Source of the DNA: Candidatus Eiseniibacteriota bacterium | GTDB taxonomy: Bacteria > Joyebacterota > Joyebacteria > Joyebacterales > Joyebacteraceae | Length of the DNA: 61,664 nucleotides | Direction: 5' to 3' | NCBI GenBank assembly: GCA_030622115.1 | Contig: JAUXGN010000015.1 | Coordinates: 1 to 61,664, forward strand | Shown: positions 35,645 through 59,172 of the stretch, one piece after another | Numbering within the stretch: position 1 is the stretch's first letter | How the letters are laid out: every line of letters starts with the position of its first letter | Position numbers and translations under genes: made by a program | The notes under the pieces: model-generated | The model's input: only the letters and a program-made list of their open reading frames with translations | Told to the model about the DNA's origin: nothing | Database searches by the model: none

Positions 35645-37020
35645 GCGGCGTCTCCCCGTTTGCGCTCTGAAGCGGTCATGCTCGCCGCGAGAGCGAAGAG
35701 CATCCACAGCAAGTAGTTACCCGACGCCTCTGTAGTAGGAAAGGTCTGTGCCTGAACGTAGAAGGCGACTCCCGCCGCAAGCACGGCAACGCGGGGCCAG
35801 CCCGGACGGCCCCGCGATCGAACCATGCCCAGGAAGAATATCACGCAGAGCGCCCCATACAAGAGAATCCCAGGCACACCGAGAGCCATGCCTCTCTGCA
35901 GGAAGTAGTTCTCTGCACCGAAGGCCACAACGTGAGCTCTGGTTACCTGGTAGTCGTGCTCGAGTGCCCTCCTGATGCCACCCCATCCAACTCCGACAAA
36001 CGGATGGGCACGCATGACAGCGAGTGCCTGTGAGTAGGTGACAAGCCGAGCAACTCCCGTGGTCGCCTCACCCTTGAAGACCCGCTCCGCCTTGTTCAGA
36101 AAGGCCGCCGGGGCAAAAGCAGTCAGGAGAACGAAGAACAGGAGCAGAAGCACGATCGTGCGCCGTCCCCATCCGATGACAAGAGCAGTCACGACTCCAG
36201 CGGTCATCCCAATCAGTCCGCCAATCGAGTAAGTGAAGAGATTGCAGTACACCGCTGCGATGGCCAGAAGGGCGACGAAAACGCGGAGTCCTCGCGAAAG
36301 CCTGTGCGCCAGAAGGCCGATCGCGATCGCCACACTGACAGACAGGTAGTGCGAGAACAAGAGCGTCATCTTAAATGTCGAGAACACCCGGAGGTTGCGC
36401 TCTCCGTGGAAGCCGTAGGCTATGAGTCTGTTCCCCCAGTCCGGCAGATCGGCCCCGAACGGAAGCAACGCTTGGTAGAAGCCGTAGACAATTGCCGGGA
36501 CGAGCCCGACGAGGACAGCGAGAAGAGTCCGGGTTGCCTGCCGGCCGTCGCGCACAACGGTCGTCGCTACGACGAACACCGCGATCTGCCCGATGATCCG
36601 GTATATGGATGCGACACCCCAGAAGAAATGGGACGCGGTGAATAGCCCCGCGATACTCAACAGAACAATCGCAGCCGCGATATGGAGGGTGCGACGTTCG
36701 CGCCACATGTCTCTGAAGCCCCCTCGTCGAACGGAGGCTACCACAAGCCACAAGAGAAGTACGTCACTGGCGCACAGTGAGACCGTTCCATGGAAGTCGA
36801 AAGAGAGAGGCTCCCGCAGCGGGATTGAGGCAACGAACACATACCACAGTGCTTCAAGGGGACCGAACTGCCGTGAAAGCGCCACACCAGCGACGACCGC
36901 AACAACACCAATGGCAGTAGGTAGTGGGGCGGCGTTCACGGCGAGGGCCAGGAGCCCAAGAACCCCAGCGAGGAGAATCCAGACGCCGGCCGACTTCCCC
37001 ACTGACAGAGGTTCCGTCAC
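35641..37020 (-). CDS. O-antigen ligase/polymerase-like membrane protein (Wzy/WaaL)
   Basis: Polytopic protein of 459 residues with about twelve hydrophobic helices and a larger extracytoplasmic loop near residues 310 to 390. That loop contains RLVTYSQALAVMRAHPFVGV and GWGGIRRALEHDY, the pattern of the Wzy_C domain of polymerases and ligases (R, H and G-x-G positions). It would join repeat units or ligate them to lipid A core in the periplasmic leaflet. Position between a GT4 and a Wzx flippase favours the polymerase role. The start is GTG at 37020 with GGAGG six bases before it, overlapping the flippase stop by four bases. Confidence 0.85.
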   Translation of the reverse strand: MTEPLSVGKSAGVWILLAGVLGLLALAVNAAPLPTAIGVVAVVAGVALSRQFGPLEALWYVFVASIPLREPLSFDFHGTVSLCASDVLLLWLVVASVRRGGFRDMWRERRTLHIAAAIVLLSIAGLFTASHFFWGVASIYRIIGQIAVFVVATTVVRDGRQATRTLLAVLVGLVPAIVYGFYQALLPFGADLPDWGNRLIAYGFHGERNLRVFSTFKMTLLFSHYLSVSVAIAIGLLAHRLSRGLRVFVALLAIAAVYCNLFTYSIGGLIGMTAGVVTALVIGWGRRTIVLLLLFFVLLTAFAPAAFLNKAERVFKGEATTGVARLVTYSQALAVMRAHPFVGVGWGGIRRALEHDYQVTRAHVVAFGAENYFLQRGMALGVPGILLYGALCVIFFLGMVRSRGRPGWPRVAVLAAGVAFYVQAQTFPTTEASGNYLLWMLFALAASMTASERKRGDAA

Positions 37021-38486
37021 GACTTGCCTCCATCACCGGATACGCGCCCCGGCAACCCGGAGCGAAAGCGCAACCGACGCAGCTCACCGCGGAGTTCCGG
37101 ATCAAGCACCACCCAGATGCTCGCGAACGCGGAGCCCAGCAGAACCGCTGCACCGATAACGGCAATGATCCCGCTCCCCCTGGAGAGAACGTGTGCAAGC
37201 CCCCAGGCGGGCGCCAGCACGATCACCGTGGTCACGACGGGCGCCCTGAGTGCCCTAAACATGTCACTCCGTCCGATTCCCAAGATCGACGCAGCGGCCG
37301 GCCAGCCGACGGCGAGAGCGGCGGCGGCGGCTACCGTCATCACGCAGGCCACGCCCGCAACACCCCATCGACCGGCAACCGGATAGAGCCCCACGACTGC
37401 CACCGCAAGTTGCACTCCGCAGATCGTCCGAAAGACGTGCGGTCGTCCGGTCCCGATCAGAAGATCCCCGACAAGAGCCGAGAGAGCGCGAAACAGAGCG
37501 AAGACGCCAAGCAGAGCGAGCGGCACAACTGCCGCCTCCCACTTGCTTGCGTAGAGTGCGGTGAGAAGCGGACGCCCGAGGAAAGCAAGGCCCACAGCAT
37601 ACAGAAGCCCGGCTCCGGCCATGCACGACGTTGCCCGGAGGAAGAGGGTTCGCTGCGCGACCCTGTCTTCACGAAGTGAGCTGTACGTGGGAAAGAGCAC
37701 CGTATTGAGGATTCTGACCAAGAGCGTCGCCGGGATATTCGCGATCGCATAGGCGAAGACGTAGATCCCGAGCGAGTGCGTACCGAGCAATCGGCTCAGG
37801 GTCAGCCTGTCGGCGTTTCGAAAGGCAAAGATAAGCGCGCTGCCACCGATGACGGTCCACCCGAACGCAAGGTTCTGCCTCGCGAGTCCTGCATTGAAGC
37901 GCAGGCGAGGCTTCCACGGGGATACGATCCAATAAGAGACGGTTTCGAGAAACACGGATGCGATCTCGCCGCCGAGCAGCGCCCAAGCTCCGGCGCCACG
38001 AAACGCAAGGAAGAGAGAGACCACCAGATAGGCCAGAGAACCTGCGAGTGCCGGAACGAGCTTCTGCCTGAAATCGAGAGCCTTCTCGAACAGTCGAAAT
38101 GGGACCATGCGGAAGGCGTGAAGCAGGACGATGATCAACCCCACCCGGAAGAGATCCGTCATCGCCTCTTCGCCATAGAAGCGGCCGATCTGGGGTGCCA
38201 CCAACCAGGCAACAACGATCAGCACGGTACCGATCGCTACTGACAGCAGGAACGACGTGTCAGCGGCTTCGCCCGTCTCGTCCTGTTTGTAGACAAGAGC
38301 GTGCCCGATGCCCAGTCCCTGAAGCAGAGCCAGTCCGTCCAGGATGATGAAGACCGCGAAGAACAGGCCGAAATCGCTCGGCGTGAGGAGACCGCCCAGC
38401 ACGAACAGCGCAACGTAGCGGACGGAACGAACCGCAAACATCGCGCCACCGACCCATGCTACACCCTTGAGCACGGTTCTCTTCAT
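37017..38486 (-). CDS. Wzx-type polysaccharide flippase
   Basis: MOP-superfamily exporter, 489 residues, with about fourteen predicted membrane helices. The N-terminus 'VLKGVAWVGGAMFAVRSVRY' with 'LLTPSDFGLFFAVFIILDGLALLQGLGIGHALV' is typical of the WzxC/RfbX group. The basic loop 'RLFEKALDFRQKLVPAL' is a frequent landmark. It would flip undecaprenyl-linked repeat units to the periplasm. It is coupled by four-base overlaps to wzy downstream and wzz upstream. Confidence 0.88.
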   Translation of the reverse strand: MKRTVLKGVAWVGGAMFAVRSVRYVALFVLGGLLTPSDFGLFFAVFIILDGLALLQGLGIGHALVYKQDETGEAADTSFLLSVAIGTVLIVVAWLVAPQIGRFYGEEAMTDLFRVGLIIVLLHAFRMVPFRLFEKALDFRQKLVPALAGSLAYLVVSLFLAFRGAGAWALLGGEIASVFLETVSYWIVSPWKPRLRFNAGLARQNLAFGWTVIGGSALIFAFRNADRLTLSRLLGTHSLGIYVFAYAIANIPATLLVRILNTVLFPTYSSLREDRVAQRTLFLRATSCMAGAGLLYAVGLAFLGRPLLTALYASKWEAAVVPLALLGVFALFRALSALVGDLLIGTGRPHVFRTICGVQLAVAVVGLYPVAGRWGVAGVACVMTVAAAAALAVGWPAAASILGIGRSDMFRALRAPVVTTVIVLAPAWGLAHVLSRGSGIIAVIGAAVLLGSAFASIWVVLDPELRGELRRLRFRSGLPGRVSGDGGKS

Positions 38487-39730
38487 AGGGATTCCGGCGA
38501 GAGATCAGTCCCTTCCGCAGCGTCCTTTCGTCCCCAGCTCGCGAGCGGCTTCAGCAACCGAAGGAGGATCCGGGATTCTCTGGAGTCAGTGATCGTGGTG
38601 GGTGACTCCGTGTCCTCTGCGAAATCAAGGAAGGATTCGGCCGCAAGCGTCATTCCAAGCGAGGCAGCAAGTGCGAGAAGAGTAGTGAGGATACAGACAA
38701 TGCTCCTGCGCGGGCGGGTCTTCTTGATGGGAGGAACGGCCTCATCAAGAACCATCACGACCTGGAGGTCCCTGGACTCCTGAATCCGCGCGTCCTCGAG
38801 CTGCGCCCGCAGGAACTCGTAGACCTTCTCGTGAACCATGACTTCACGCGAGAGATCCGCGTACTGGAACACAAGTGACGGTATCTCGTCCACTGGGAGA
38901 AAGACCCCGCTCGGCGGGCTCGAATCCCCATCCATGGAGCCTCCTCGCAACTCTTCAAGCGCCTGCCCGATTGCGCTCAATCTCGTTTCAATCTCACGTA
39001 GCCTCGGCTGGCTGGGCAACGAAAACGTCTCCAAAACACGTTTTTCGATCTCGAGCTTGCCGCGTTCCGATTCCAGCTCCGCCACGACCTCGACGGTGAC
39101 GCGCGTCTGCGCAGATAGCTCGATAGCACCGTTGGCCTTTTGGAATGCACGGAGCTCTTCGGCCGATTCATCGAGACGGACCCTCACATCGACAATCGCA
39201 CTCTCAATGAACTCCCGCGTCCGGCCGGCGTTCCGAACGCTCACACGGCGACTGTGCTCGTCTAGATACTCCGCAAACGCGTTGGCCATGTTTGCGGCCC
39301 GCTTCGGGTCTCGGTCCTCTACCCAGATCTCTATGAGTCCCTCGGCTGTCGTGTTGAAGCGAATGTGATCCCACAGGTCCTCAATGGCGTGTCCTCTTGT
39401 CTCGGCGCCGTACACCGACACAAGATCGAACCTGTCGACGATCTTGCCCCTAAGAAGCCGGCTTTTCAGGATGCCGATGCTCAGATCGGTAGCCGGCGTC
39501 GTGGAGAGGAGCCCGGAGCCGCCGAAATCCATGCCGATCTTTGTGAACATACCGAGCAGACTGCCGCGGGACTCTCCCTCTTCCGGCGGCATGATCAGGC
39601 TACTGGCCCCGTACCAGTTGGGGAGCAGAAGACTGACGATCACGGAGACTATGGCCGCCGTCCCCGTCACACGGTAGATGAAACGTCTCCAAGAAAAGAG
39701 GACACCTATTGCGCTCGCGTTCTTCCGCAT
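38483..39730 (-). CDS. Wzz-type chain-length determinant
   Basis: Polysaccharide co-polymerase of 415 residues. Two membrane helices bracket a long periplasmic coiled-coil region: the first near residues 20 to 40 (AAIVSVIVSLLLP) and the second near 345 to 370 (SIVCILTTLLALAASLGMTLAAE). The Pro-rich 'VMVLDEAVPPIKKTRPRR' precedes helix 2, as in the Wzz family. There is no cytoplasmic tyrosine-kinase domain, so any BY-kinase is separate or absent. It probably sets chain length with the neighbouring Wzy. A GGAG site precedes the ATG. Confidence 0.9.
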   Translation of the reverse strand: MRKNASAIGVLFSWRRFIYRVTGTAAIVSVIVSLLLPNWYGASSLIMPPEEGESRGSLLGMFTKIGMDFGGSGLLSTTPATDLSIGILKSRLLRGKIVDRFDLVSVYGAETRGHAIEDLWDHIRFNTTAEGLIEIWVEDRDPKRAANMANAFAEYLDEHSRRVSVRNAGRTREFIESAIVDVRVRLDESAEELRAFQKANGAIELSAQTRVTVEVVAELESERGKLEIEKRVLETFSLPSQPRLREIETRLSAIGQALEELRGGSMDGDSSPPSGVFLPVDEIPSLVFQYADLSREVMVHEKVYEFLRAQLEDARIQESRDLQVVMVLDEAVPPIKKTRPRRSIVCILTTLLALAASLGMTLAAESFLDFAEDTESPTTITDSRESRILLRLLKPLASWGRKDAAEGTDLSPESL

Positions 39731-47309: not shown

Positions 47310-47335
47310 GACCGGGGGCCACACGGCCCCCGGTC
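47310..47335. terminator. Bidirectional terminator hairpin
   Basis: An 11-bp perfect stem (GACCGGGGGCC / GGCCCCCGGTC) with a 4-base loop lies between two converging genes, 59 bases after the TPR protein stop and 42 bases after the carboxypeptidase stop. Position and strength suit termination of both. Confidence 0.75.
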
Positions 47336-47376: not shown

Positions 47377-49704
47377 CTACTTGAGAAGGACCAGCTTAGA
47401 GGCCGCGAAGTCTCCCCCTGCCTCGATCCTGACGAAGTAGATGCCTGCGGCCGTCTCGCGACCGGCATCATCAGAGCCGTCCCACCTGATCTCGTGTCCA
47501 CCCGCCTCGCGCTCCTGATCCGCAAGAAGTGTACGTACGACTCGCCCGGCAGCATCGTAGACGACGACGCTCACCGCTCCGGCAGCCGGGATTTGGAATC
47601 TGACGGTTGTCTTTGGATTGAACGGATTCGGATAGTTGGAGACAGAGAGCGGCAGCACGGCGATATCGCCCACACCGGTACCCGGCATGTCACTTGAGAT
47701 CGTGACATCATCGACGTACCAGCCATCCTCGGTGATGTACCCGTCGGAATCGAGCCTGAATCTCACCTTGAAGGTGCTCGTGCCGACGTAGCTTGCGAGA
47801 TCGATCTGCTCCTCGGCCCAGTCCCCAAGATAGCCGTCGTACGACGCAACCTCGATCCAGCTCGAGCCACCGTTCGTGCTGACCTCAACATAGCAGTAGT
47901 CGTATTCGGGCTCTGTGTCGTACTTGTGCCAAAACGAGAGAAGACCCGTCGTCGCCTCGGACAGATCCACGGAGCTCTGGAGCGCAATGGTGGTGTTAGC
48001 GTGGTTGCCGTAGTTTCCACCGGGACTGTCGGTCATCGATGTTGATGGGCTGTAGGACTCGCTCGTTGTCGTTCCCCAGGCTCCCGTCCACGCCGCGAGA
48101 CCCGATTCGAAGTCATCGAAGAACGTCGGAGTGGCAAGAATGAAGTTCTCGCTCGAGGTTGCACCGTCGAACACGATGACGTCGTCGATCGTAGCAGGCG
48201 TGTAACCGGACCTGGTCGCCTTCATGTCGTAGGTTCCGACCGGAATGTAGTTGATCTCGTAGTAGCCGGTCCCGGCGGCGCTCACGGATGAGTAGCCCTC
48301 TATGTCGGTGAGTTCTACGGTCGCGCCACCGAGCGGACTCATGCTCTCATCGTAGACGTAGCCTGCAATCGTCCCGCGAGGCGGCGGTTCGAGCGCGAAG
48401 TTGACGATCACAAATGTGTCGAGACTCGCCGAAACATTGTAGACCGTCTGCGTCGGATACTCGGCGGCCGTGCATATGACCGTGTAGGTCCCCGACTCGA
48501 CCATGCGATGGTAGTCGCCGACTGCCGGATCCGTGTAGACGTCCTTGCCAATCTCGGGAATGCTGATGGTCGCGTAGATCGGATCCCCGGTGTCGCCGTC
48601 GGTCACGAGGCCGCGAATGCCACGTCCCGACACGCGAGCCTGGTGGAGCATCGCATCGCGGTTGTCGTCGAAGATCGGAGTGATCTGTGACGCGGGCGGG
48701 TCCTTGATCGTCGACACTTCGATGGTCGTGTCTATCTCGCCACGCACATCGTAGCACCAATCCTGGCAGCTTCCCTTGACTATGTACCAGTCGGCGCCGT
48801 TGGTAACCGGGAGACCACTGTACGCACCGTACACGTTCGAGATGGTGATGATCATGGGTTCATCCGGCGTCGGATCGTACGTGTAATCCCAGAGGTAGTT
48901 CACATAGACGGCGCCGGAATGGAACGTGAGAGACGTCACAGGATTCATACCCACATTGAAATCCCTGAGCGCCCTCGACTCGGCCCCCCTCCAGCACGTA
49001 CCCGCATTGGAACCGTCCGGGCTGTAGTAATCGCGGTTCAGGTCGATGCCGTCGGCATTGTATCGCGAACCGCTCTCGTAGCCGTCGGGATTGAGCATCG
49101 GGATTATCCAGATCTCGCGCTCGTTGACGATCCATGTGATATTCGGGTCGACGCCGTAGTTCTCCAGAAGGTGCTCGATCATGTAGTAGCAGACCTCGGC
49201 GCTGATCGTCTCATCCCCGTGGTGTGCCCCTATCCACTGGACCTCGGGCTCGAACTCCTCAATGCCGGGATTGTCCGTGATCTTCATCGCCCAGAGCTCG
49301 CGGCCCTGAACGCTCTGCCCGATAGTGACGAGTTCCGTGATGGCCGGATAGCTTGCCGCCCACGCGGCCATGTCTGCCGTCAGCTCGGCGTAGCTGTGGT
49401 ACTCACCCCGATCGGCCAGCCGCAGCGAGTGGACATCGGCGATCATGTTCTCAACCACAACAACAGGTCGGTAGCCGTTCGCCCAGAGGATCTCTATCTC
49501 CCCCGGAATCGCAGCGATCTCCGCCACTCCGTCCCGCACGGACATGATGTCCATACCAAGATCGTTCAGACGATGGATGTCTTCCCTGGAAAGAATCTCT
49601 ACCTCCACCACTGCCGCATCGTCCCGTGGATACGCGGACGACACAACCGGGAAGAGCAGGGAAACGAAGAGCAAAGCTGCAAACGCAAGATGCCACACAC
49701 GCAT
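47377..49704 (-). CDS. Secreted M14 zinc carboxypeptidase with T9SS-type C-terminal domain
   Basis: Secreted peptidase of about 775 residues. After a signal peptide (AFAALLFVSLLFPVVSSAYP) comes a propeptide and the M14 catalytic domain (about 115 to 400). Its zinc motif is GAHHGDETISAE, with 'IPMLNPDGYESGSRYNADGI', 'DLNRDYY', the third ligand in LTFHSGAVYVNYLWDY and the catalytic Glu in DTTIEVST. Two carboxypeptidase-regulatory folds follow (IRGLVTDGDTGDPIYATI and IAGYVYDESMSPLGGATVEL), then a jelly-roll-like domain. The last 95 residues carry NYPNPFNPKTTVRFQIP and AAGIYFVRIEAG, the FlgD-like/T9SS type A sorting pattern. AAGGAG precedes the start at 49704. Confidence 0.92.
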   Translation of the reverse strand: MRVWHLAFAALLFVSLLFPVVSSAYPRDDAAVVEVEILSREDIHRLNDLGMDIMSVRDGVAEIAAIPGEIEILWANGYRPVVVVENMIADVHSLRLADRGEYHSYAELTADMAAWAASYPAITELVTIGQSVQGRELWAMKITDNPGIEEFEPEVQWIGAHHGDETISAEVCYYMIEHLLENYGVDPNITWIVNEREIWIIPMLNPDGYESGSRYNADGIDLNRDYYSPDGSNAGTCWRGAESRALRDFNVGMNPVTSLTFHSGAVYVNYLWDYTYDPTPDEPMIITISNVYGAYSGLPVTNGADWYIVKGSCQDWCYDVRGEIDTTIEVSTIKDPPASQITPIFDDNRDAMLHQARVSGRGIRGLVTDGDTGDPIYATISIPEIGKDVYTDPAVGDYHRMVESGTYTVICTAAEYPTQTVYNVSASLDTFVIVNFALEPPPRGTIAGYVYDESMSPLGGATVELTDIEGYSSVSAAGTGYYEINYIPVGTYDMKATRSGYTPATIDDVIVFDGATSSENFILATPTFFDDFESGLAAWTGAWGTTTSESYSPSTSMTDSPGGNYGNHANTTIALQSSVDLSEATTGLLSFWHKYDTEPEYDYCYVEVSTNGGSSWIEVASYDGYLGDWAEEQIDLASYVGTSTFKVRFRLDSDGYITEDGWYVDDVTISSDMPGTGVGDIAVLPLSVSNYPNPFNPKTTVRFQIPAAGAVSVVVYDAAGRVVRTLLADQEREAGGHEIRWDGSDDAGRETAAGIYFVRIEAGGDFAASKLVLLK

Positions 49705-49742
49705 TCGGGACTCCTTCCAGAGAGAACCTGTGTGATGCAGGC

Positions 49743-49764
49743 GGCCGGCGGAACCCCGCCGGCC
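49743..49764 (-). other. Intercistronic hairpin
   Basis: GGCCGGCGG-AACC-CCGCCGGCC forms a 9-bp stem between the second Omp28-like gene and the carboxypeptidase gene. No U-run follows, so it may set differential expression through RNA processing or partial termination. Confidence 0.5.
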
Positions 49765-49795
49765 ACCCACTCACCACAACTCAACGTCAAGCGCT

Positions 49796-51814
49796 CTACT
49801 TGAGGAGCGCCATCTTCCTTTCTGCTGTCTCACCACCGGCCGTCAGCTTCGCGAAATAGATGCCGGAGGCGAGACTTCTGCCACTGTCGTCCTTGCCGTT
49901 CCAGACGACAGAGTGCGGCCCGGCAGTCAGCTCATCATCGACGAGCGTGCGCACGAGCCTTCCGCTCACATTGTAGACATGGAGCTCAACGGGACCGGCA
50001 TTGTCCGGCACGCTGAACTGGATGCTCGTGATCGGATTGAACGGGTTAGGCATGTTCTGGTTGAGCACCAGCTTCGCGAACTCGGGTGCACCATCGTCCG
50101 GCACATCGGTCTCGTCAAAGTCGAACCACGCCATGATCCGCTCGACCAGCACACGGTTGTTGTCGGGTGGAGCGTACACCGACTTTACGCACTCGAACGG
50201 GAACGCAAGGAAGACCACCTTGTGATCGTCCTCTGATATCTTGACCGCCTTATCTCCCACGCTGTCCGCCGTGAAGATGACATCGTCACCGGACGCCGGC
50301 GTCACACTGTCGCTCTCAGTAACCGGGAACGGACCACCGAGAAGACCGAGTGCCATGCCATCGGATACCATGTCGTCTGTAACACCATTCATGATGAACC
50401 CTGACGTGTCGTTCGTCCACGACGTGATATGGAGATAGTCGGTTATGAACGAGTTCGAGGTACGACTCGACAGGTAGTTCATGCTGGCGAGGCAGAGGTT
50501 TCCGCCCGCGTCAAGATAGTCGGCCATCGCCTGCTCATCGCCCGCGACTATCGTCGTCGCGTCCCCGCTGGCGGTGGTCCAGAACGCCGCATAGAACGAC
50601 TTGAGGAGCGTGGCGCTCGGCCGACCCTTGGTGTAGCAATCCCAGGTGTACGGCGGGTAGCCAGTGTCTGTGAGAGCCCCCTGGAAATACGTCTCATACG
50701 TCATCGGACCATCGTCGTCGACGAGCAGAACCGATGTCAGGTCACAGAAGGCGACGAACTCCGCCTCCCTCGTGAACCCGGCTGCATCGCTCTCTACAGA
50801 CATGATCATCGTTCCGATGTCCTGATGCGTACCGTTGTAGTCCGTGATGTGGACGTAGAGCGTCTCGGTGGCCCCGACCGGAACGAAGAACGTATGCGCA
50901 CCCATGTAGCAGATGCCCTCCGTTGTGCAGTAGTTGGCGACCCAGTTGTAGGGATCACCAGGGAAGTCCGTGGTGAAATCCACGTTCAGATCGTCATCGA
51001 CCGTGCCTGTGTTATGCAGGAGGAGCGTGTAGATGGCCTCGCCCCAGTAGTCGATCTCGTGCGCGTAGGTGTCAACCAACATCTCGAAATCGTACGGATC
51101 CGGCATGAGCGCCGACTGAACGATCTGCTGGGGGTCCGTGTCCTCGATGAAGACGATGATGTGCATGTTGAGCGTGTTGTCCGTCGAGTTCGTGATGCCA
51201 CTGAAGTACTTCGTGAACTCGATCGAATCTCCCGCAGCACTGAGCGTTGTCACCGCCTCAGGCGCCAGCATGTCGCGAACCGTGTACGGGTACGATGCAC
51301 TGACCTCTTCGTACACCACGAACTGTGCCCTGAGATCCCCCAGGCCGACGGCGTCGGTGGCTCTGAACTTCGCGGTCACCCACCCCCCGACAGTTCCACG
51401 AGTCCCCTCGGCCTCAATCGAACCATAGCACTCAATCTCGATTGGACTCGGCACAGCGAGTCTGGCGTCGACGATGGGACGATACATGTCGATGACCGTC
51501 GGACCCGCGCCGATAACCTGGTCCACAGCATCGAACTCGACGTGCGGGATTCCGCCGACGCCATAGTAGCTGGCACGGGCGTAGGTCTCACCTGTCGCAT
51601 AGCCGTCACTGACGTGGTAGTAGAGCACGACCAGCTGGTCGGTGCCCTTTTCTGCCTGGAGCTCAACGAGCGCCGCACAGGCATTCGGACAGTAGCCACA
51701 GCCGGTCGACCCGAACAGCTCCGCCAGCACCGCCCTGTCGGACGCGAGCGCGGAGAGCGCTGACATCACAAAAACAATTGTCACCAAACCAACGATCACC
51801 GATCGCCTTGCCAT
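49796..51814 (-). CDS. Omp28-like secreted protein with CxxC and T9SS-type C-terminal domain
   Basis: A 672-residue exported protein with signal peptide (IVFVMSALSALAS). The N-terminal part resembles Omp28/thioredoxin-fold proteins: LAELFGSTGCGYCPNACAAL contains a CxxC pair, followed by 'LVVLYYHVSDGYATGETYAR' and 'GIPHVEFDAVDQVIGAG'. A middle domain begins SVLLVDDDGPMTYETYF and includes DYLDAGGNLCLASMNYL, a layout seen in glutaminase-like folds of other surface proteins. The last 95 residues contain NMPNPFNPITSIQFSVP and LASGIYFAKLTAGGET, a T9SS type A-like sorting domain. AAGGAGTAC precedes the ATG at 51814. The gene before it is an Omp28-like lipoprotein. Confidence 0.87.
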   Translation of the reverse strand: MARRSVIVGLVTIVFVMSALSALASDRAVLAELFGSTGCGYCPNACAALVELQAEKGTDQLVVLYYHVSDGYATGETYARASYYGVGGIPHVEFDAVDQVIGAGPTVIDMYRPIVDARLAVPSPIEIECYGSIEAEGTRGTVGGWVTAKFRATDAVGLGDLRAQFVVYEEVSASYPYTVRDMLAPEAVTTLSAAGDSIEFTKYFSGITNSTDNTLNMHIIVFIEDTDPQQIVQSALMPDPYDFEMLVDTYAHEIDYWGEAIYTLLLHNTGTVDDDLNVDFTTDFPGDPYNWVANYCTTEGICYMGAHTFFVPVGATETLYVHITDYNGTHQDIGTMIMSVESDAAGFTREAEFVAFCDLTSVLLVDDDGPMTYETYFQGALTDTGYPPYTWDCYTKGRPSATLLKSFYAAFWTTASGDATTIVAGDEQAMADYLDAGGNLCLASMNYLSSRTSNSFITDYLHITSWTNDTSGFIMNGVTDDMVSDGMALGLLGGPFPVTESDSVTPASGDDVIFTADSVGDKAVKISEDDHKVVFLAFPFECVKSVYAPPDNNRVLVERIMAWFDFDETDVPDDGAPEFAKLVLNQNMPNPFNPITSIQFSVPDNAGPVELHVYNVSGRLVRTLVDDELTAGPHSVVWNGKDDSGRSLASGIYFAKLTAGGETAERKMALLK

Positions 51815-51934
51815 ACTTGTACTCCTTCCGCGGCGACACCGCTGCAATTGCTAGGATCCTCCCGCCGGTCGCTGTGGCGACAGTGTGGCTACTCCGTCCT
51901 ATCGGTCGTTCACAGTACTTCGTTCTCTCACCAT

Positions 51935-53008
51935 CTATCGTGCTTCCAGTCTCGCCGACTGGACTATCTCCATGGTGTCATCGTTCTGGACGAATACCAT
52001 CGCGTCCAGATTCGCCGGATTCCAGCTCGGGTCGATCGTGACATCATAGATAACCTCTGTGGAATCCCCGACTGCGGTCAGTGTGAACGCCTCGTCGTCG
52101 AGGAGATCGCGCGCGACGTACGGATAGAGATCGTGTGCAAAGTTGACGTCTTCCTCCAGCACAATCGTCCTCAGGACGTATGTGCCGGCCGGAAGGGAAT
52201 CCATCACCTCCACCTTGGCCGTGAGACTCACCCGCGCTCCACTCAGATCACCGGTCAGCTGGAGCGAGAGAGGCGAGCCTATGGCCCGTCTGAGCTCGAT
52301 CTCAAATTCATAGTCCGCCTGAGCCGTGGGAACTGAACTCGAACCCTCGACAATCCTCCCGCCATCGAAGACAGCGATCGGATAGGCGGTCGCCCCACCG
52401 GGGAACTCCGGATTATCCGTGTACCAATCGATCCTTGCGATCGTCTCATCCGTTCCCACGGGAGGCAGATCATGGTATGCGACGACGCAGAGCCTGTCGG
52501 CCCCATACTGGTCCATCAGGTTGTCGAGCGCCTCCTCCCCGAACGGGCAGTTGGTGCAGTTGTATGTCGTGAAGAACTCTACAAGCACATTTCTGTCGAC
52601 CAGGCCGCCGGCAGTTCCTACCGCGAACAAACAAGTGTCGGGCGGGCTCTCGTCGCCCTCATCATCGATGGCAACGACAATGAAGACGTGGTCGCCCTCG
52701 ACAACGTCCTCGACCGTGTGCGCGCCATCCGACGTGGCTCCGGTCACCGTGTCATCATAGCTCCACGCAAACTCTGCTATGGTCCCGTCGTAGTCGCCGC
52801 CGGCCCACTCAAATGTCACGTCGTCGCCGGCCACGGCTTCCCCACCGGACGGGCAGCTGGTGATCGTTACCCAAGGCAACAGGTTGATCTCGATAGGATC
52901 AGCGAACCAATCACATCCTCCCTGAGCCGCTATCCAAACCGTGATGAGGGCAATCATCGACACAAGTCGGCTCGCTCGCCGCCCGAGTCCGGAGTTCATA
53001 TTCAACAC
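51935..53008 (-). CDS. Omp28-like lipoprotein with CxxC motif
   Basis: A 357-residue predicted lipoprotein. A signal (VSMIALITVWIAAQGGC) ends in a Cys that could be lipidated. A PKD/Ig-like domain follows (SCPSGGEAVAGDDVTFEW... AFAWSYDD). The Omp28-type thioredoxin-like domain starts at about residue 140 with VLVEFFTTYNCTNCPFGEEAL, which holds the CxxC. 'LCVVAYHDLPPVGTDETIAR', 'ATAYPIAVFDGGRIVEGSSS' and 'VLEEDVNFAHDLYPYVARDL' follow, matching the region order of the larger CxxC protein encoded next. No sorting domain is present. The GTG at 53008 is chosen since GGAGG stands eight bases upstream. Confidence 0.87.
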   Translation of the reverse strand: MLNMNSGLGRRASRLVSMIALITVWIAAQGGCDWFADPIEINLLPWVTITSCPSGGEAVAGDDVTFEWAGGDYDGTIAEFAWSYDDTVTGATSDGAHTVEDVVEGDHVFIVVAIDDEGDESPPDTCLFAVGTAGGLVDRNVLVEFFTTYNCTNCPFGEEALDNLMDQYGADRLCVVAYHDLPPVGTDETIARIDWYTDNPEFPGGATAYPIAVFDGGRIVEGSSSVPTAQADYEFEIELRRAIGSPLSLQLTGDLSGARVSLTAKVEVMDSLPAGTYVLRTIVLEEDVNFAHDLYPYVARDLLDDEAFTLTAVGDSTEVIYDVTIDPSWNPANLDAMVFVQNDDTMEIVQSARLEAR

Positions 53009-53020
53009 TCGTCCGTCCTC

Positions 53021-54499
53021 CTAGAAAAACGCGCTGAGTCTGATACGCGCGCCTTCAAACTCGGGTTCATGGTAGCAGACACCGCCACTGCACTTGAGAC
53101 CGCCGCGCTCGCTTCCCACGCTGACGGAGACCTCGAAATCGTTAGCGAGGAGTTTCTTCACCTCGGTCATCATCCAGATGCTCCGCTCCTCGATCGTGTC
53201 ATTGCTGGTCTCGATCACGGTCGCGAAGGTCAGGCCGTGGCTCGGATAGACTGTTGTCGAGAAAAGGTAGTCCTCGTGCTTGTCCCCCGTAAGTTCCTCT
53301 GTCTGCTGCGCCTGGAGCTGAAACTCGATGTCCCGTCCTGATTCCGGCGACAGAATGAACTCCGTTCCGACCGTGAAGTGCTCGATGAACTTGCCCAGTT
53401 CGTACTCCCTCGACCAGGCCCCCGCGAGTGAGGCACTGCTTCCGCCCTCAAACCAGTGATCGGCCTGCGAGAAAATCTCCCAATGCAGGAGCTCGGCCTC
53501 ATGATTCCGTGCTTCGGAGGCGCCCCCCATGAGCATCGAGTGATGGCCAAAGGGGATGCTGCCCTCAACAAGAAACCCTCGCTCGTCATCGAGGTCGGGT
53601 TCATAGGTCGTACGGTTCATGAACGTCCAGAGATGGTCCCGCACGCACGTCGGTGGGCTGACAAGGTAGTGATAGAAATCCTCGAAGTCCTTGAACTCAC
53701 CGAAGAGCGTTGCCCAGGGAAGCTCGACTGTGCCTGCCACGTAGGTGGCGTGACCCTGCGATGCCTGTTCGCCTGTGTCCGTATCCTCCACATACCTGCC
53801 GGTATACTCGGCTGCGAGCGTGATCGGCCCCATCCACGACTCAAGCTCCGCACCCAGGAGCACGTCTTCCGATCTGCCGATGGTGTCCGGGACGAGAGGA
53901 TCGCTGTCCTCATCAGCGGCCATGCGCTCGATCGCGCTTCCGGCCAGATTCAGCCAACCGGCAATGGCTTGCTCAGCGCGGATCGCGCGAATCTCGTGTC
54001 GGCGGTAGCGCGTCCCGAAGAGGGCCTCGTCAGTCGCCCCCGCGAGCGCTGTGAGATGCACGTCCCCTGTGGTGTACTCCGCCAGAAGACCATCAAGAGC
54101 GGCATTGTGCTCCAGATCGATATCCTCAAAACTGCGAAGCGACAGACCCCGCCCGAACGTCGAGAAGAAATGCCCGACCCTCAGGTGCAGGTCGTCCTGC
54201 TCGAACTCGGCGAAGCGATGTCTGATCTCCGTGAGCGGCAGATCGACACCGGACGGGTTGTAGGTGGGGTCCGAGAGCTGGGAGGCGCGATAGACCACGC
54301 CGACCGTCAAGGGACCAATGCCTGCGTCCAGCGCCAATCTCGCATCGAAAGCTGATGCGCCGAGGCCTGTGTTGTAGAGATACTCACTCGTGACGACGCC
54401 GCCGGTCCACACATCGCTGTCCGCGCGCGCGGATACCACCGGAGACAGAAGAAGCCCGATGACGACGATGGTCATCCAAGAGCACACGTTCCTACTCAC
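53021..54499 (-). CDS. Outer-membrane protein, DUF6029-like
   Basis: A 492-residue exported protein with signal peptide (IVVIGLLLSPVVSARA). The rest alternates aromatic and polar residues in the beta-strand rhythm of an outer-membrane barrel and ends in Phe-Phe (IRLSAFF), the usual C-terminal barrel signal. Its content (HLRVGHFFSTFGRGLSLRSF, 'DLEHNAALDGLLAEYTTGD') resembles DUF6029 proteins of Bacteroidota, which often lie beside Omp28 and TlpA genes. The assignment is from memory of the family and needs a profile search. It overlaps the TlpA gene by eight bases and is 12 bases from the Omp28 lipoprotein gene. The GTG start has GGGGGAGG upstream. Confidence 0.72.
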   Translation of the reverse strand: MSRNVCSWMTIVVIGLLLSPVVSARADSDVWTGGVVTSEYLYNTGLGASAFDARLALDAGIGPLTVGVVYRASQLSDPTYNPSGVDLPLTEIRHRFAEFEQDDLHLRVGHFFSTFGRGLSLRSFEDIDLEHNAALDGLLAEYTTGDVHLTALAGATDEALFGTRYRRHEIRAIRAEQAIAGWLNLAGSAIERMAADEDSDPLVPDTIGRSEDVLLGAELESWMGPITLAAEYTGRYVEDTDTGEQASQGHATYVAGTVELPWATLFGEFKDFEDFYHYLVSPPTCVRDHLWTFMNRTTYEPDLDDERGFLVEGSIPFGHHSMLMGGASEARNHEAELLHWEIFSQADHWFEGGSSASLAGAWSREYELGKFIEHFTVGTEFILSPESGRDIEFQLQAQQTEELTGDKHEDYLFSTTVYPSHGLTFATVIETSNDTIEERSIWMMTEVKKLLANDFEVSVSVGSERGGLKCSGGVCYHEPEFEGARIRLSAFF

Positions 54500-55058
54500 C
54501 GGCCTCCCCCTGGTTCACAGTCTCGTCCGCGTCGGGCTCAGGACAACCGCCCGGAATGAGACCTTCGATGGCCCTCACCAGATCATCATGATTGCCCGGT
54601 CTGTACCCCGTGACTGCGTAGACGATGTTCCCATTGGTATCTACGAGAACCGTGCGCGGAATGGAGGTCACGTGGTACTTGCGTGCGACATTCATGCTCG
54701 GGTCCAGGACGACCTCGAACGTGTTCCCCTTCGCTCTTACGAACGCCCCGACCTTGGAGGTCGTGCGCGAACCGTCGATCGAAACGGCTACGACTGTAAG
54801 ACCGCAATCTTTGTAGTTGTCAAAGATCTCCTGAAGATCCGGGAAGGCCTTTATGCACGGCTTGCACGACATCGCCCAGAAATCGACGACCACCGGACCG
54901 TCCTTCAGTAGTTCCGAAAGCGTCACGTCTACGCCTGCGGGATTCCGAAGCGTGAAGTCGGCCGCCTTCTTCGCGGCCGCAAACGACGCGCTCGCCCCCA
55001 TCAACACGAGTACGACCGCACATATTGCCACGTGGGTCGTGAATCTCCTGCCAGTCAT
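54492..55058 (-). CDS. TlpA-family periplasmic thioredoxin (CKPC)
   Basis: Secreted thiol oxidoreductase of about 188 residues. A signal peptide (AVVLVLMGASASFAAA) is followed by the TlpA/ResA fold: 'AADFTLRNPAGVDVTLSELL', the active site WAMSCKPCIKAFPDL, 'LTVVAVSIDGSRTTSKVGAF' and the cis-Pro loop SIPRTVLVDTNGNIV. A C-terminal acidic tail carries one extra Cys (GGCPEPD). It is the first gene of the operon that continues into DUF6029, two Omp28-like proteins and the carboxypeptidase, so it may supply reductant or isomerase activity to those CxxC partners. GGGGG precedes the ATG. Confidence 0.92.
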   Translation of the reverse strand: MTGRRFTTHVAICAVVLVLMGASASFAAAKKAADFTLRNPAGVDVTLSELLKDGPVVVDFWAMSCKPCIKAFPDLQEIFDNYKDCGLTVVAVSIDGSRTTSKVGAFVRAKGNTFEVVLDPSMNVARKYHVTSIPRTVLVDTNGNIVYAVTGYRPGNHDDLVRAIEGLIPGGCPEPDADETVNQGEAGE

Positions 55059-55083
55059 GGATCCCCCATTCATCAACTTACTT

Positions 55084-55113
55084 ATTATATCACCGATGAG
55101 TACCAATCGTCAA
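55084..55113 (-). promoter_or_regulatory. Strong promoter of the TlpA-Omp28-carboxypeptidase operon
   Basis: TTGACG (55113..55108), 18-base spacer and a perfect TATAAT (55089..55084) preceded by TG at the extended -10 position. The start site is near 55077, about 20 bases before the TlpA ATG. Confidence 0.8.
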
Positions 55114-56653: not shown

Positions 56654-57265
56654 CTAGGCGCCGGTAACGTCTGTCGCCAGTGCGTCTACGATGTCGGATG
56701 TAAGTTCTGCAGCCATCTCCATTGCGAAACCCACATGCTTCGCCACGATGCGCCCGTCCCTGCCAATGATGAACGTGGTTGGGATCCCCGTCACCTTGTA
56801 GGCCTCACTCACCGCGCGGCCACCGACGAGAATCGGATACGTGATGCCGTTTTCCTCGGCGAACGGCGCCAGTTCTGGGGCGCCTCCCCTGTCAAGACCG
56901 ACACCGAATATGACAAGCCCCTGGTCCTTGTGTTCATCATAGAGATCGATCAGCACCGGGATCTCCTCGCGGCACGGCCGACACCAGGTAGCCCAGAAAT
57001 CGACTACGACGACGCTGCCTCTGAAGTCTTCCACCGTCACCTCGTTCCCGTTGAGATCAGGAAGTGTGAATGTGGGAGGATACTGCCCAATCCTGATCCC
57101 CGTATCGTCGCCGGCTTCGGTAGAGACGTCAGCCTCGGTGGAGATGGCGTCAGCACTGCCGCCGATCTGCGTCGAGTCTTCGCCTTGACCACCACAGCCA
57201 CCAAGCATCAGCAGACTGACAAGCGCGGAGACGATCACAATAGACAGAAGAGTTCGCGTTCTCAT
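56654..57265 (-). CDS. TlpA-family thioredoxin lipoprotein
   Basis: About 203 residues. A signal with lipobox (LVSLLMLGGCGG) is followed by an acidic linker and the TlpA/ResA domain: 'YPPTFTLPDLNGNEVTVEDF', active site WATWCRPCREEIPVL, 'GLVIFGVGLDRGGAPELAPF' and the cis-Pro loop GIPTTFIIGRDGRIV. It is a membrane-tethered thiol reductase, perhaps for cytochrome c or cell-surface proteins. It differs from the other TlpA in its CRPC site and lipid anchor. GGAGGA precedes the ATG at 57265. The thioredoxin gene lies 125 bases upstream. Confidence 0.93.
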   Translation of the reverse strand: MRTRTLLSIVIVSALVSLLMLGGCGGQGEDSTQIGGSADAISTEADVSTEAGDDTGIRIGQYPPTFTLPDLNGNEVTVEDFRGSVVVVDFWATWCRPCREEIPVLIDLYDEHKDQGLVIFGVGLDRGGAPELAPFAEENGITYPILVGGRAVSEAYKVTGIPTTFIIGRDGRIVAKHVGFAMEMAAELTSDIVDALATDVTGA

Positions 57266-57390
57266 TTGCGTTTCCTCCACCGGATCTGCAGGCATCTCAG
57301 CCTCACACGCTCCGGTCTGTGTTCACGTGTCTGCCGAATCGGGGTTCGTTTGCGGCTCCCCACACACACTATTCCGCTACTGGACAGGCC

Positions 57391-57720
57391 CTAGAGCAGC
57401 CCGTCGATCTTCTCCTGGATGCTCTCCTTCACCGCCGCACCGACGATCATGTCCACCGGCTCGCCGTTCTTGAAGAAGAGAAGGGACGGGATCCCACGAA
57501 TACCATACTGCTGCGCGAGCGGCTGATTCTCGTCGACGTTGACCTTCGCCACCTTCATCTTACCGGCGTTGTCGTTCGCGATCTCCTCGACGACCGGCCC
57601 CACAACCCTGCACGGCGCACACCACGGCGCCCAGAAGTCAACGAGTGCAAGTCCCTCGTACTTGATGATCTCCGAATCGAAGTTCTCTTCCGTTGCTGTG
57701 AGTAGATTCTCTGTTGACAC
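57391..57720 (-). CDS. trxA: Thioredoxin
   Basis: Cytoplasmic thioredoxin of 109 residues. The active site is DFWAPWCAPCRVV, with Ala in place of the usual Gly between the two residues after Cys1 (WCAPC rather than WCGPC). The cis-Pro loop is GIRGIPSLLFFKNGE, and the C-terminal helix is VKESIQEKIDGLL. The start is taken as GTG at 57720 (VSTENLL) because AGGGG lies seven bases upstream. A longer frame from 57765 has a poor N-terminus. It is followed downstream by the TlpA lipoprotein and preceded by an ArsR regulator gene. Confidence 0.94.
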   Translation of the reverse strand: MSTENLLTATEENFDSEIIKYEGLALVDFWAPWCAPCRVVGPVVEEIANDNAGKMKVAKVNVDENQPLAQQYGIRGIPSLLFFKNGEPVDMIVGAAVKESIQEKIDGLL

Positions 57721-57854
57721 CTCTCTGCCCCTTTCCTGTGGCGATGCCGATCCAATCCGGCACACTGAACTCTGTTTTCGACTTTCAATCGGATGCGGTC
57801 AACGACACTAGGATTCCACATTCCGAACCCCAGAAGCGTAGAGACCGCTCTCTT

Positions 57855-58199
57855 CTACTTCATATCCCGGCGCTTAAGCGCCAACTGGACTATCTCCGCT
57901 GCCTTGCCTTCCAACAAACGGTAGCAGACCAGATGCCCTCGACGCTCTGATTCAATGAGCCCTCCGTACTTGAGCCTCCGCAGATGCTGCGAAACCGAGG
58001 GCTGCGAAACCCCCAGGAGTTCCTCAAGTCGCTTCACACAGAGTTCGCCCGAGCTAAGGAGTTCAATGATCCTCAGCCGCACCGGGTGGGCGAGTGCTTT
58101 CAGAAGCTCGGAAGCGGTGTCGAAATCGACATCAGCCGGGACTCCTCCGGGAATGCCGCGGACGCCACCCTGTCCTGCGCTGTCCTTTGCCCCACGCAT
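57855..58199 (-). CDS. ArsR-family transcriptional regulator
   Basis: Winged-helix repressor of 114 residues. The core 'LLKALAHPVRLRIIELLSSG' is followed by 'ELCVKRLEELLGVSQPSVSQ' and 'HLRRLKYGGLIESERRGHLV'. The only Cys in the DNA-binding region is in ELCVK, so a redox or metal cue is possible but a complete ArsR metal site is not obvious. It lies upstream of trxA, the TlpA lipoprotein and the membrane peptide, all on the same strand, and a symmetric site overlaps its own promoter (58227..58248). Autoregulation and control of the thiol genes are inferences. Confidence 0.9.
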   Translation of the reverse strand: MRGAKDSAGQGGVRGIPGGVPADVDFDTASELLKALAHPVRLRIIELLSSGELCVKRLEELLGVSQPSVSQHLRRLKYGGLIESERRGHLVCYRLLEGKAAEIVQLALKRRDMK

Positions 58200-58393: not shown

Positions 58394-59065
58394 CTACTCT
58401 ATAGAGAAGCGGAGTCGCTCGAGAAGAAGACCGTCCCGGTCGACGATGTCAACGTGCCACTCCCCCCGCCACTCATCGAGGACCTTCTTCTTGCTCCACG
58501 TGCGCCAGCGACTGCTCTTGACCTCCAGCGGAACCCGGCCCATGTTGCGATCGCCCCAGTACCAGACGTGAAAGACCGAATCCGGTTCGGCTGCTCCACC
58601 GATCTCACTGAAGCAGCAGATTCGTCCTACACCGTCCCCCTCGGGAAGAAAGCTCCTCCCAGCCTCAGTCGGTTCACTCTGCTCTATGCCCTTGCAGATG
58701 TAGGCACGGATCACTCTGAGTCCCGACAATGATACTCGATCAGGCTCCTCGCTGGGGGCATCCGACCGACTTGCCGTTTCTTCCTCTGCGGGAGTCATCT
58801 CGAGTGACAGGGGCTCCTCGCCACCCGGCGCATGGACCGTGCTATCAGAATCATCAGGCTCGCCGGTCGTCTGCTCGGACACCGCGACCACCGCGTCTCC
58901 TGGGACTTCGGTTGCCATTTCGCCGACCACACTCACATCAGGACTGCCGGAATCGGGTGATTCAGACGCATCGGCACTGGAGACGTCCTCACTGCGCTCT
59001 TCCGAACACCCTGCTGCGAGGATGGTCGCAGCTGCGAGGCAGATTACGAGAATCGCTCTGGTCAT
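58394..59065 (-). CDS. DUF2914-domain lipoprotein
   Basis: About 223 residues. A lipoprotein signal (AILVICLAAATILAAGC) is followed by a long acidic, low-complexity linker rich in Ser/Glu/Asp (about 20 to 115). A C-terminal DUF2914 domain follows ('VFHVWYWGDRNMGRVPLEV', 'SRWRTWSKKKVLDEWRGEWH', VDIVDRDGLLLE). The domain is small, beta-rich and of unknown function, often found in envelope proteins. The linker would hold it away from the membrane. The start at 59065 (MTRAIL) is used, with GGGGGG in the preceding 14 bases. It stands alone between the arsR-like gene and a cysE fragment. Confidence 0.82.
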   Translation of the reverse strand: MTRAILVICLAAATILAAGCSEERSEDVSSADASESPDSGSPDVSVVGEMATEVPGDAVVAVSEQTTGEPDDSDSTVHAPGGEEPLSLEMTPAEEETASRSDAPSEEPDRVSLSGLRVIRAYICKGIEQSEPTEAGRSFLPEGDGVGRICCFSEIGGAAEPDSVFHVWYWGDRNMGRVPLEVKSSRWRTWSKKKVLDEWRGEWHVDIVDRDGLLLERLRFSIE

Positions 59066-59172
59066 GGATCCCACCCCCCAGTCGCCGATCGTACGAGGAC
59101 GTCATCGTGACACATGTTCAGGAGAGCTGACTCAGACTAGCCCTCCCCTGCTCAGACTGTCAAGAGGTCTTC

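Follow-up and report, generated by a model that had tools for sequence, protein, structure and literature searches.

A TlpA–DUF6029–Omp28 gene set in a Candidatus Eiseniibacteriota bacterium: a candidate thiol relay across the outer membrane

HBP35 of Porphyromonas gingivalis (PDB 5y1a) is a surface thioredoxin secreted by the type IX secretion system (T9SS), with a thioredoxin domain, a CxxC motif, a following domain and a C-terminal sorting domain. To our knowledge, the recharging of such bacterial surface thioredoxins outside the cell is an open question. DsbD, CcdA and ScsB carry reducing power across the inner membrane by thiol exchange, and the MtrCAB porin-cytochrome conduit combines a wide barrel with periplasmic and surface redox partners. 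We know of no precedent for a thiol relay of the outer membrane, should one be shown. Here we describe five genes in a stretch of 61,664 nucleotides (contig JAUXGN010000015.1, referred to as the window) of a Candidatus Eiseniibacteriota bacterium. Their TlpA–DUF6029–Omp28 set offers a specific answer to the recharging question: the putative operon may build a dithiol relay from TlpA to a dithiol of an outer-membrane barrel and on to surface proteins, a reading whose chances we consider evenly balanced.

The five open reading frames (ORFs) are on the minus strand with short gaps between them, as described in a first-pass annotation of this DNA. They encode TlpA, DUF6029, two Omp28-like proteins (Omp28a and Omp28b) and an M14 carboxypeptidase.

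55084..55113, minus strand: sigma-70-like promoter with an extended -10 (-35 TTGACG, spacing of 18 nt, TGATATAAT; -10 TATAAT with TG ahead of it; 11 of 12 matches)
54492..55058, minus strand: TlpA/ResA-like thioredoxin with signal peptide (AhpC-TSA 83.7 bits, Redoxin 73.9 bits; improved start)
53021..54499, minus strand: DUF6029, predicted outer-membrane barrel (Pfam 80.1 bits over two stretches; improved start)
51935..53008, minus strand: Omp28a, probable lipoprotein with a thioredoxin-Omp28 domain (Omp28 26.6 bits, below the cut-off of 34.9; improved start)
49796..51814, minus strand: Omp28b, HBP35-like thioredoxin domain, ThuA-like middle and FlgD/T9SS-type sorting tail (predicted model; FlgD_ig 46.6 bits; improved start)
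47377..49707, minus strand: M14 zinc carboxypeptidase with MAM-like and sorting domains (Peptidase_M14 166 bits; improved start)
47310..47335, minus strand: terminator-like hairpin, GC-rich, 11 pairs of which 10 are G-C, 3' of the last gene

The TlpA and DUF6029 genes overlap by 8 bp, and the gaps that follow are 12 bp (DUF6029 to Omp28a), 120 bp (Omp28a to Omp28b) and 88 bp (Omp28b to the carboxypeptidase). The three CxxC motifs noted earlier are present: CKPC in TlpA (54855-54866), CTNC in Omp28a (52547-52558) and CGYC in Omp28b (51689-51700). A fourth Cys pair had been overlooked, CSGGVC in the DUF6029 barrel (53075-53092; C470 and C475). The nearest named relatives of the window's genome are Candidatus Eisenbacteria metagenome-assembled genomes (MAGs), and its DUF6029 gene shares 95% identity with that of locus L108.

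The gene order TlpA–DUF6029–Omp28, the conservation of which had been put forward as a check, holds in other genomes. DUF6029 was found in 25 of 61 relatives, including 18 of 20 in the window's own family (its own genome counted), and in 72 of 386 genomes of a wider draw. It is also found in 210 of 296 sampled genomes of the class around genome G348, whose T9SS scores lead us to regard it as Bacteroidia, and the function of DUF6029 would thereby touch very many species. In a first set of loci, TlpA is located within 400 nt upstream of DUF6029, or in the same ORF, in 64 of the 76 fetched. Among the 12 misses, L034 and L107 are at contig ends, L075 is barely past the limit, the ORF start of L078 is misplaced, and in L092 an Omp28 gene sits between TlpA and DUF6029. 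A second set was drawn from records named Eisenbacteria, TA06, Gemmatimonadota, Calditrichota, KSB1, Zixibacteria, Ignavibacteria, Rhodothermia, Balneolaceae, Flammeovirgaceae, Prolixibacteraceae and others, and 71 of its 79 loci have TlpA (at least 100 bits) no more than 1.5 kb upstream. Loci L150 and L172 are from MAGs named Melioribacter roseus and Caldithrix abyssi. The TlpA profile gave 71 matches in 109 kb near DUF6029 and 1 match in 481 kb beyond 4 kb, a background that describes this TlpA subfamily and not all thioredoxins, the profile having been trained on ORFs of the same kinds of loci. The locus sets overlap and are not independent (for instance, most of L108-L127, plus L129, L173 and L180, repeat genomes of L032-L107). 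Outside the window's family, TlpA is within 700 nt in 49 of 59 loci. For the Bacteroidia-like class, 20 loci were chosen among the top matches listed, in most cases a single one for each family; TlpA is just upstream of DUF6029 in 16 of them (one with an ORF called between), and an Omp28-type gene is just downstream in 18. In many of the loci L210-L229, UbiX-like and porin-like genes come after the Omp28 gene, with a Sir2-like gene upstream (named by eye from their N-termini).

TlpA and DUF6029 are fused into one ORF in two of the 76 loci (L051 and L054), with both Pfam families above cut-off. TlpA is on the N-terminal side of these fusions and therefore on the periplasmic side. The CxxC motif is retained in all 71 adjoining TlpAs, as CKPC in 55 of them. 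The window TlpA is similar to the periplasmic reductases ResA, TlpA and CcmG in having the AhpC-TSA/TlpA fold family, a CxPC site and a signal peptide. However, it is far below the NCBIfam equivalog cut-offs (90 vs 170 bits for ResA, 47.7 vs 230 for TlpA), and its partner is an outer-membrane barrel, to which it can even be fused.

DUF6029 (PF19494) is the sole Pfam family assigned to the second protein, at 80.1 bits against a gathering cut-off of 27. Its AlphaFold2 (AF2) model, with a mean predicted local distance difference test score (pLDDT) of 90.6, is a barrel counted at about 24 strands. The best fold match is the FimD usher pore (Z 20.3, root-mean-square deviation (rmsd) 4.4 for 365 residues, about 10% identity). 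PapC (Z 19.0) and MtrB (6r2q_B, Z 16.3) are also matched, with OccK and AlgE near. DUF6029 is therefore like the chaperone-usher pores in its fold and in its strand number of about 24. On the other hand, the identity is low, no Pfam family other than DUF6029 is found, and a common barrel size shows no function.

The C-x-G-G-x-C-type Cys pair of the barrel precedes its last strand and is inside a predicted tight hairpin (467-471/474-478). The pair is present in 74 of 75, 55 of 55 and 20 of 20 homologues of three sets, and the one exception is truncated by a contig end. The glycines between the two cysteines vary somewhat. The loops that carry the conserved FGRGL, PP..REH and C-x-G-G-x-C stretches face the surface by strand parity.

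Both Omp28-like proteins have the Omp28 family (PF11551, NF033782) and the Omp28-related selenoprotein family (NF045500) as their best sequence families. However, they are below every cut-off: Omp28a has 26.6 bits and Omp28b no match on PF11551 (cut-off 34.9), the scores on lipoprot_Omp28 (NF033782, cut-off 150) are 46.8 and 26.8 bits, and those on NF045500 (cut-off 200) are 38.4 and 33.3 bits. A distant relative (L150) reaches 59.5 bits on PF11551. Omp28a has AAQGGC after an N-terminal hydrophobic stretch, consistent with a lipoprotein, and an immunoglobulin (Ig)/FN3-like stretch, with FN3-module PDB matches, ahead of the thioredoxin-Omp28 domain. The domains predicted for Omp28b are thioredoxin, Omp28-type, ThuA-like middle and sorting tail. 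The two proteins are 33% identical in alignment.

The AF2 model of Omp28b has a thioredoxin fold, with the order beta-alpha-beta-alpha-beta-beta-alpha, C39xxC42 at the start of a helix and P90 in a cis-Pro-like position. With VIA-align, residues 22-241 were matched to HBP35 (5y1a; Z 22.1, rmsd 2.6, 209 aligned), and 2axo was matched as well; a Foldseek search with the whole protein was uninformative, giving large multi-domain and Ig-type proteins. Residues E32, C39, C42, R80 and P90 are invariant across 33 Omp28-type proteins, with selenocysteine (Sec) read as Cys. Omp28a carries the same E, C, C, R and P by alignment with Omp28b. A thioredoxin fold had been expected at each CxxC; the model bears this out for Omp28b, and Omp28a, assessed by the alignment of its invariant residues, may have one. 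Recombinant HBP35 reduces insulin, for which both of its cysteines are needed (PMC2907840), and the available part of that paper describes neither a barrel nor a TlpA as a partner of HBP35; it also differs in having no selenocysteine. A protein of Paraprevotella clara (00502), termed Omp28-related and T9SS-dependent, makes trypsin digest itself, and the main text of that study is without the words 'disulfide' and 'thioredoxin' (PMC9477747).

Two of the five proteins end in sorting domains, as noted earlier, and profile searches identify them as Omp28b and the carboxypeptidase. The T9SS type A sorting domain TIGR04183 (cut-off 23) is found in both, at 28.2 and 37.2 bits. On Por_Secre_tail of Pfam (cut-off 27) the carboxypeptidase has 28.5 bits and Omp28b, at 24.9, is below; the FlgD_ig tail of Omp28b has 46.6 bits. 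The translocon marker SprA_N is present in the same genome (G000:C74, 81.5 bits), and in 57 of 72 genomes with DUF6029 as compared to 52 of 314 others. On iteration, the Omp28 profiles spread to thioredoxins in general, and later Omp28 counts required at least 140 profile positions; the Omp28 counts of the first locus set are lower bounds, as some Omp28a matches were lost in deduplication. An Omp28 gene is in the locus in 38 of 56 carriers with SprA_N and in none of 15 without it (27 of 42 and 0 of 15 outside the window's family), a comparison that covers the carriers other than G003, G004, G014, G020 and the window's own locus. In contrast, TlpA still adjoins DUF6029 in 11 of the 15 carriers without SprA_N. 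Because of these two counts, TlpA–DUF6029 is, on gene content, the core, and the Omp28 partner accompanies T9SS.

The slot after DUF6029 can be occupied by another family. In four loci (Balneolaceae, Rhodothermia, Prolixibacteraceae and the Bacteroidetes MAG L174) it holds a Redoxin protein with a T9SS tail, and in the Balneolaceae and Rhodothermia loci a second redoxin-like gene lies between DUF6029 and the T9SS-tailed redoxin. The T9SS-tailed redoxin of L157 contains a TGA codon, and L173 encodes large lipoprotein-like proteins with a terminal redoxin domain. The presence of different thioredoxin-fold families in one slot points to a common surface task.

An in-frame TGA replaces the first Cys of the CxxC motif at 15 Omp28 sites of the first locus set. 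In the second set, which comes partly from the same genomes, TGA is found at 18 Omp28 and redoxin sites, exactly one per domain. The TGA form in L035 (SUGYCP) is about 85% identical to the window Omp28b, and WUGYCP, TUPYCP, SUGGCG and others are found in further relatives. The codon at the first Cys of the window Omp28b is TGT, and this protein is the Cys form. The window's genome has a tRNA-Sec with a tca anticodon (70.9 bits) beside an AIRS/SelD-type gene, and tRNA-Sec is present in the genomes checked. These TGA codons probably encode selenocysteine, because they are at the exact Cys site and because of the tRNA-Sec beside the AIRS/SelD-type gene. No weight is given to the hairpins 3' of the TGA sites, for which folding was run without a control. 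Exchange of Cys and Sec marks a redox site. The family name 'Omp28-related selenoprotein' in NCBIfam indicates that Sec in the Omp28 family is already known to its curators. The forms with a T9SS-type tail would be surface selenoproteins. Apparent selenoprotein redoxins were also observed near or next to DUF6029 in L157 (6482-7267), L158 (10417-11031), L166 (3645-4613), L173 (16424-18793) and L180, with the motifs NUPSC, GUPPC, GUGPC, SUGTC and WUTYC, some of them T9SS-tailed or large lipoproteins.

The relay proposed by the first-pass annotation is made more plausible by the linkage, the invariant barrel dithiol, the TlpA–DUF6029 fusions and the apparent Sec forms. The sequences themselves show the genes and the order they keep, the fusions, the Cys pairs and the TGA codons. 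Adding the predicted folds of the relay proteins to these, we infer a position for TlpA, a path and an outward direction for the electrons, and a kind of substrate. Periplasmic TlpA would be located at or inside the periplasmic mouth of the wide DUF6029 barrel and would exchange electrons with its invariant Cys pair. On the surface-facing rim, this pair would exchange with the surface-held thioredoxin-fold proteins, the lipoprotein-like Omp28a and the T9SS-tailed, HBP35-like Omp28b. Outside the cell, disulfides or other oxidised groups may then be reduced by the Omp28 proteins or, with lower probability, oxidised. Outward reduction is favoured because of the CxPC-type motifs, the apparent Sec forms, the reductase activity of HBP35, and the finding of the oxidase VKOR in none of 13 genomes searched in the family (DsbB was not searched).

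Several observations weigh against the relay. The invariant Cys pair of the barrel may also have a purely structural role as a disulfide, or it may bind metal. By strand parity it is on the surface side whereas TlpA is periplasmic, and contact in the modelled barrel would require TlpA or a surface partner to be inside it; an usher-sized pore could admit TlpA. No TlpA adjoins DUF6029 in L058, L062, L063, L085, L101, L104 and L105 of the first set, nor in L218, L221 and L224 of the 20-locus set. Moreover, no match to DsbD_TM or DsbD_2 was found in the window's genome (G000, a 98-contig assembly), although DsbD_TM is present in 9 of 16 searched genomes of its family, and the CcdA-like genes examined in relatives are clustered with the gene of a large permease. 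In that cluster, a CcdA-like gene is followed by the permease in L208 (529-3363) and L209 (3147-5214), from genomes G001 and G008, with a thioredoxin-like gene ahead of it in G001; no such CcdA-like gene was found in the window's genome.

The Cys pair can also be explained by maturation of the barrel itself, with DUF6029 as a porin or an export channel that depends on a single structural disulfide in its last loop, made or corrected by TlpA together with Omp28. Dsb proteins perform such a maturation for LptD. The invariant pair in its tight hairpin and the adjoining or fused TlpA would fit this explanation, as would AlgE among the fold matches and a possible role of DUF6029 barrels in polysaccharide export, raised in the available part of PMC9603273. 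However, it leaves unexplained why surface-sorted thioredoxins of two families, often with apparent Sec, accompany the pair, and why Omp28 is confined to loci of SprA_N carriers. In addition, CxPC-type motifs, here mostly CKPC, suggest reductases rather than oxidases, and overall we regard maturation as rather unlikely. The same proteins could instead move electrons inward, with disulfides being formed in T9SS cargo at the surface. The redoxin partners in L177 and L185 have CPHC, a DsbA-like motif, and HBP35 complements an E. coli dsbA mutant (available part of PMC2907840). The finding of VKOR in none of the 13 family genomes searched, a search that did not extend to DsbB, speaks against such oxidative folding. 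Sec forms favour reduction, and the inward direction is in our view improbable.

Surface thiols that bind haem or metal, and are kept reduced by TlpA, would make this an acquisition system. Its nearest solved fold, HBP35, binds hemin, and an HBP35 mutant grows poorly without it (PMC2907840). However, none of the motifs in the window has the following His of c-type haem sites, and replacement of CxxC by UxxC is typical of redox catalysis; acquisition is given only a slight chance. A still slighter one goes to the genes being mere neighbours in a general T9SS cargo cluster, with no common redox path. The frequency of SprA_N among DUF6029 carriers is in keeping with such a cluster, but the TlpA neighbour in most carriers without SprA_N, the TlpA–DUF6029 fusions, and the steep fall of TlpA matches away from DUF6029 are not.

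The proposed thiol relay differs from the known conduits in its chemistry or its location. As compared to DsbD, CcdA and ScsB, it would be in the outer membrane, with a barrel in place of helices and with no DsbD match in this genome. Like MtrCAB it would have a wide barrel with periplasmic and surface redox partners; however, it would use thiols and not haems, as no CXXCH motif is found and the residues next after the four Cys sites are I, Y, P and P. The parts belong to or are near known families, and the module would be a variant of extracytoplasmic thiol relays. A broader proposal is tentative and somewhat doubtful: a trans-outer-membrane thiol conduit general to Bacteroidota and related phyla, with TlpA in an usher-sized barrel, a barrel dithiol and secreted thioredoxin or selenocysteine proteins. 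It would parallel MtrCAB without using haem, and would be the reductase still missing for HBP35-type surface thioredoxins. In the open-access literature searched, the TlpA–DUF6029–Omp28 module, the barrel dithiol and a thiol-redox role across the outer membrane were not found, nor was a paper on Omp28 as a selenoprotein or on thiol transfer through an outer-membrane barrel. Work retrieved there for Omp28 with TlpA is on Helicobacter and Brucella, that for selenoproteins with type IX secretion is unrelated, and DUF6029 itself appears in PMC9603273.

The carboxypeptidase, earlier counted in the set, is outside the conserved module. Its profile is found in 8 of the 79 named loci, each of which falls, like the window, within the Eisenbacteria block, and it was dropped as a lineage-specific neighbour. 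The strong extended -10 promoter reported ahead of the genes is present. However, promoter-like sites as a class are not enriched (4 observed against a mean of 3.2 expected from shuffles), and the promoter is convincing only by its strength and position. It was discarded as statistical evidence, since shuffles yield such sites as often.

About 2 kb upstream of the set are a second TlpA-like protein (56654-57295), a cytoplasmic-type thioredoxin (57391-57765) and an ArsR regulator (57855-58199). The second TlpA recurs at this place in most loci of the window's family and perhaps feeds the relay. Elsewhere in the window, the AT skew of 0.268 at 36001-39000 is far from that of the remaining sequence, and a DUF2914-domain protein (76.7 bits) is encoded at 58394-59074.

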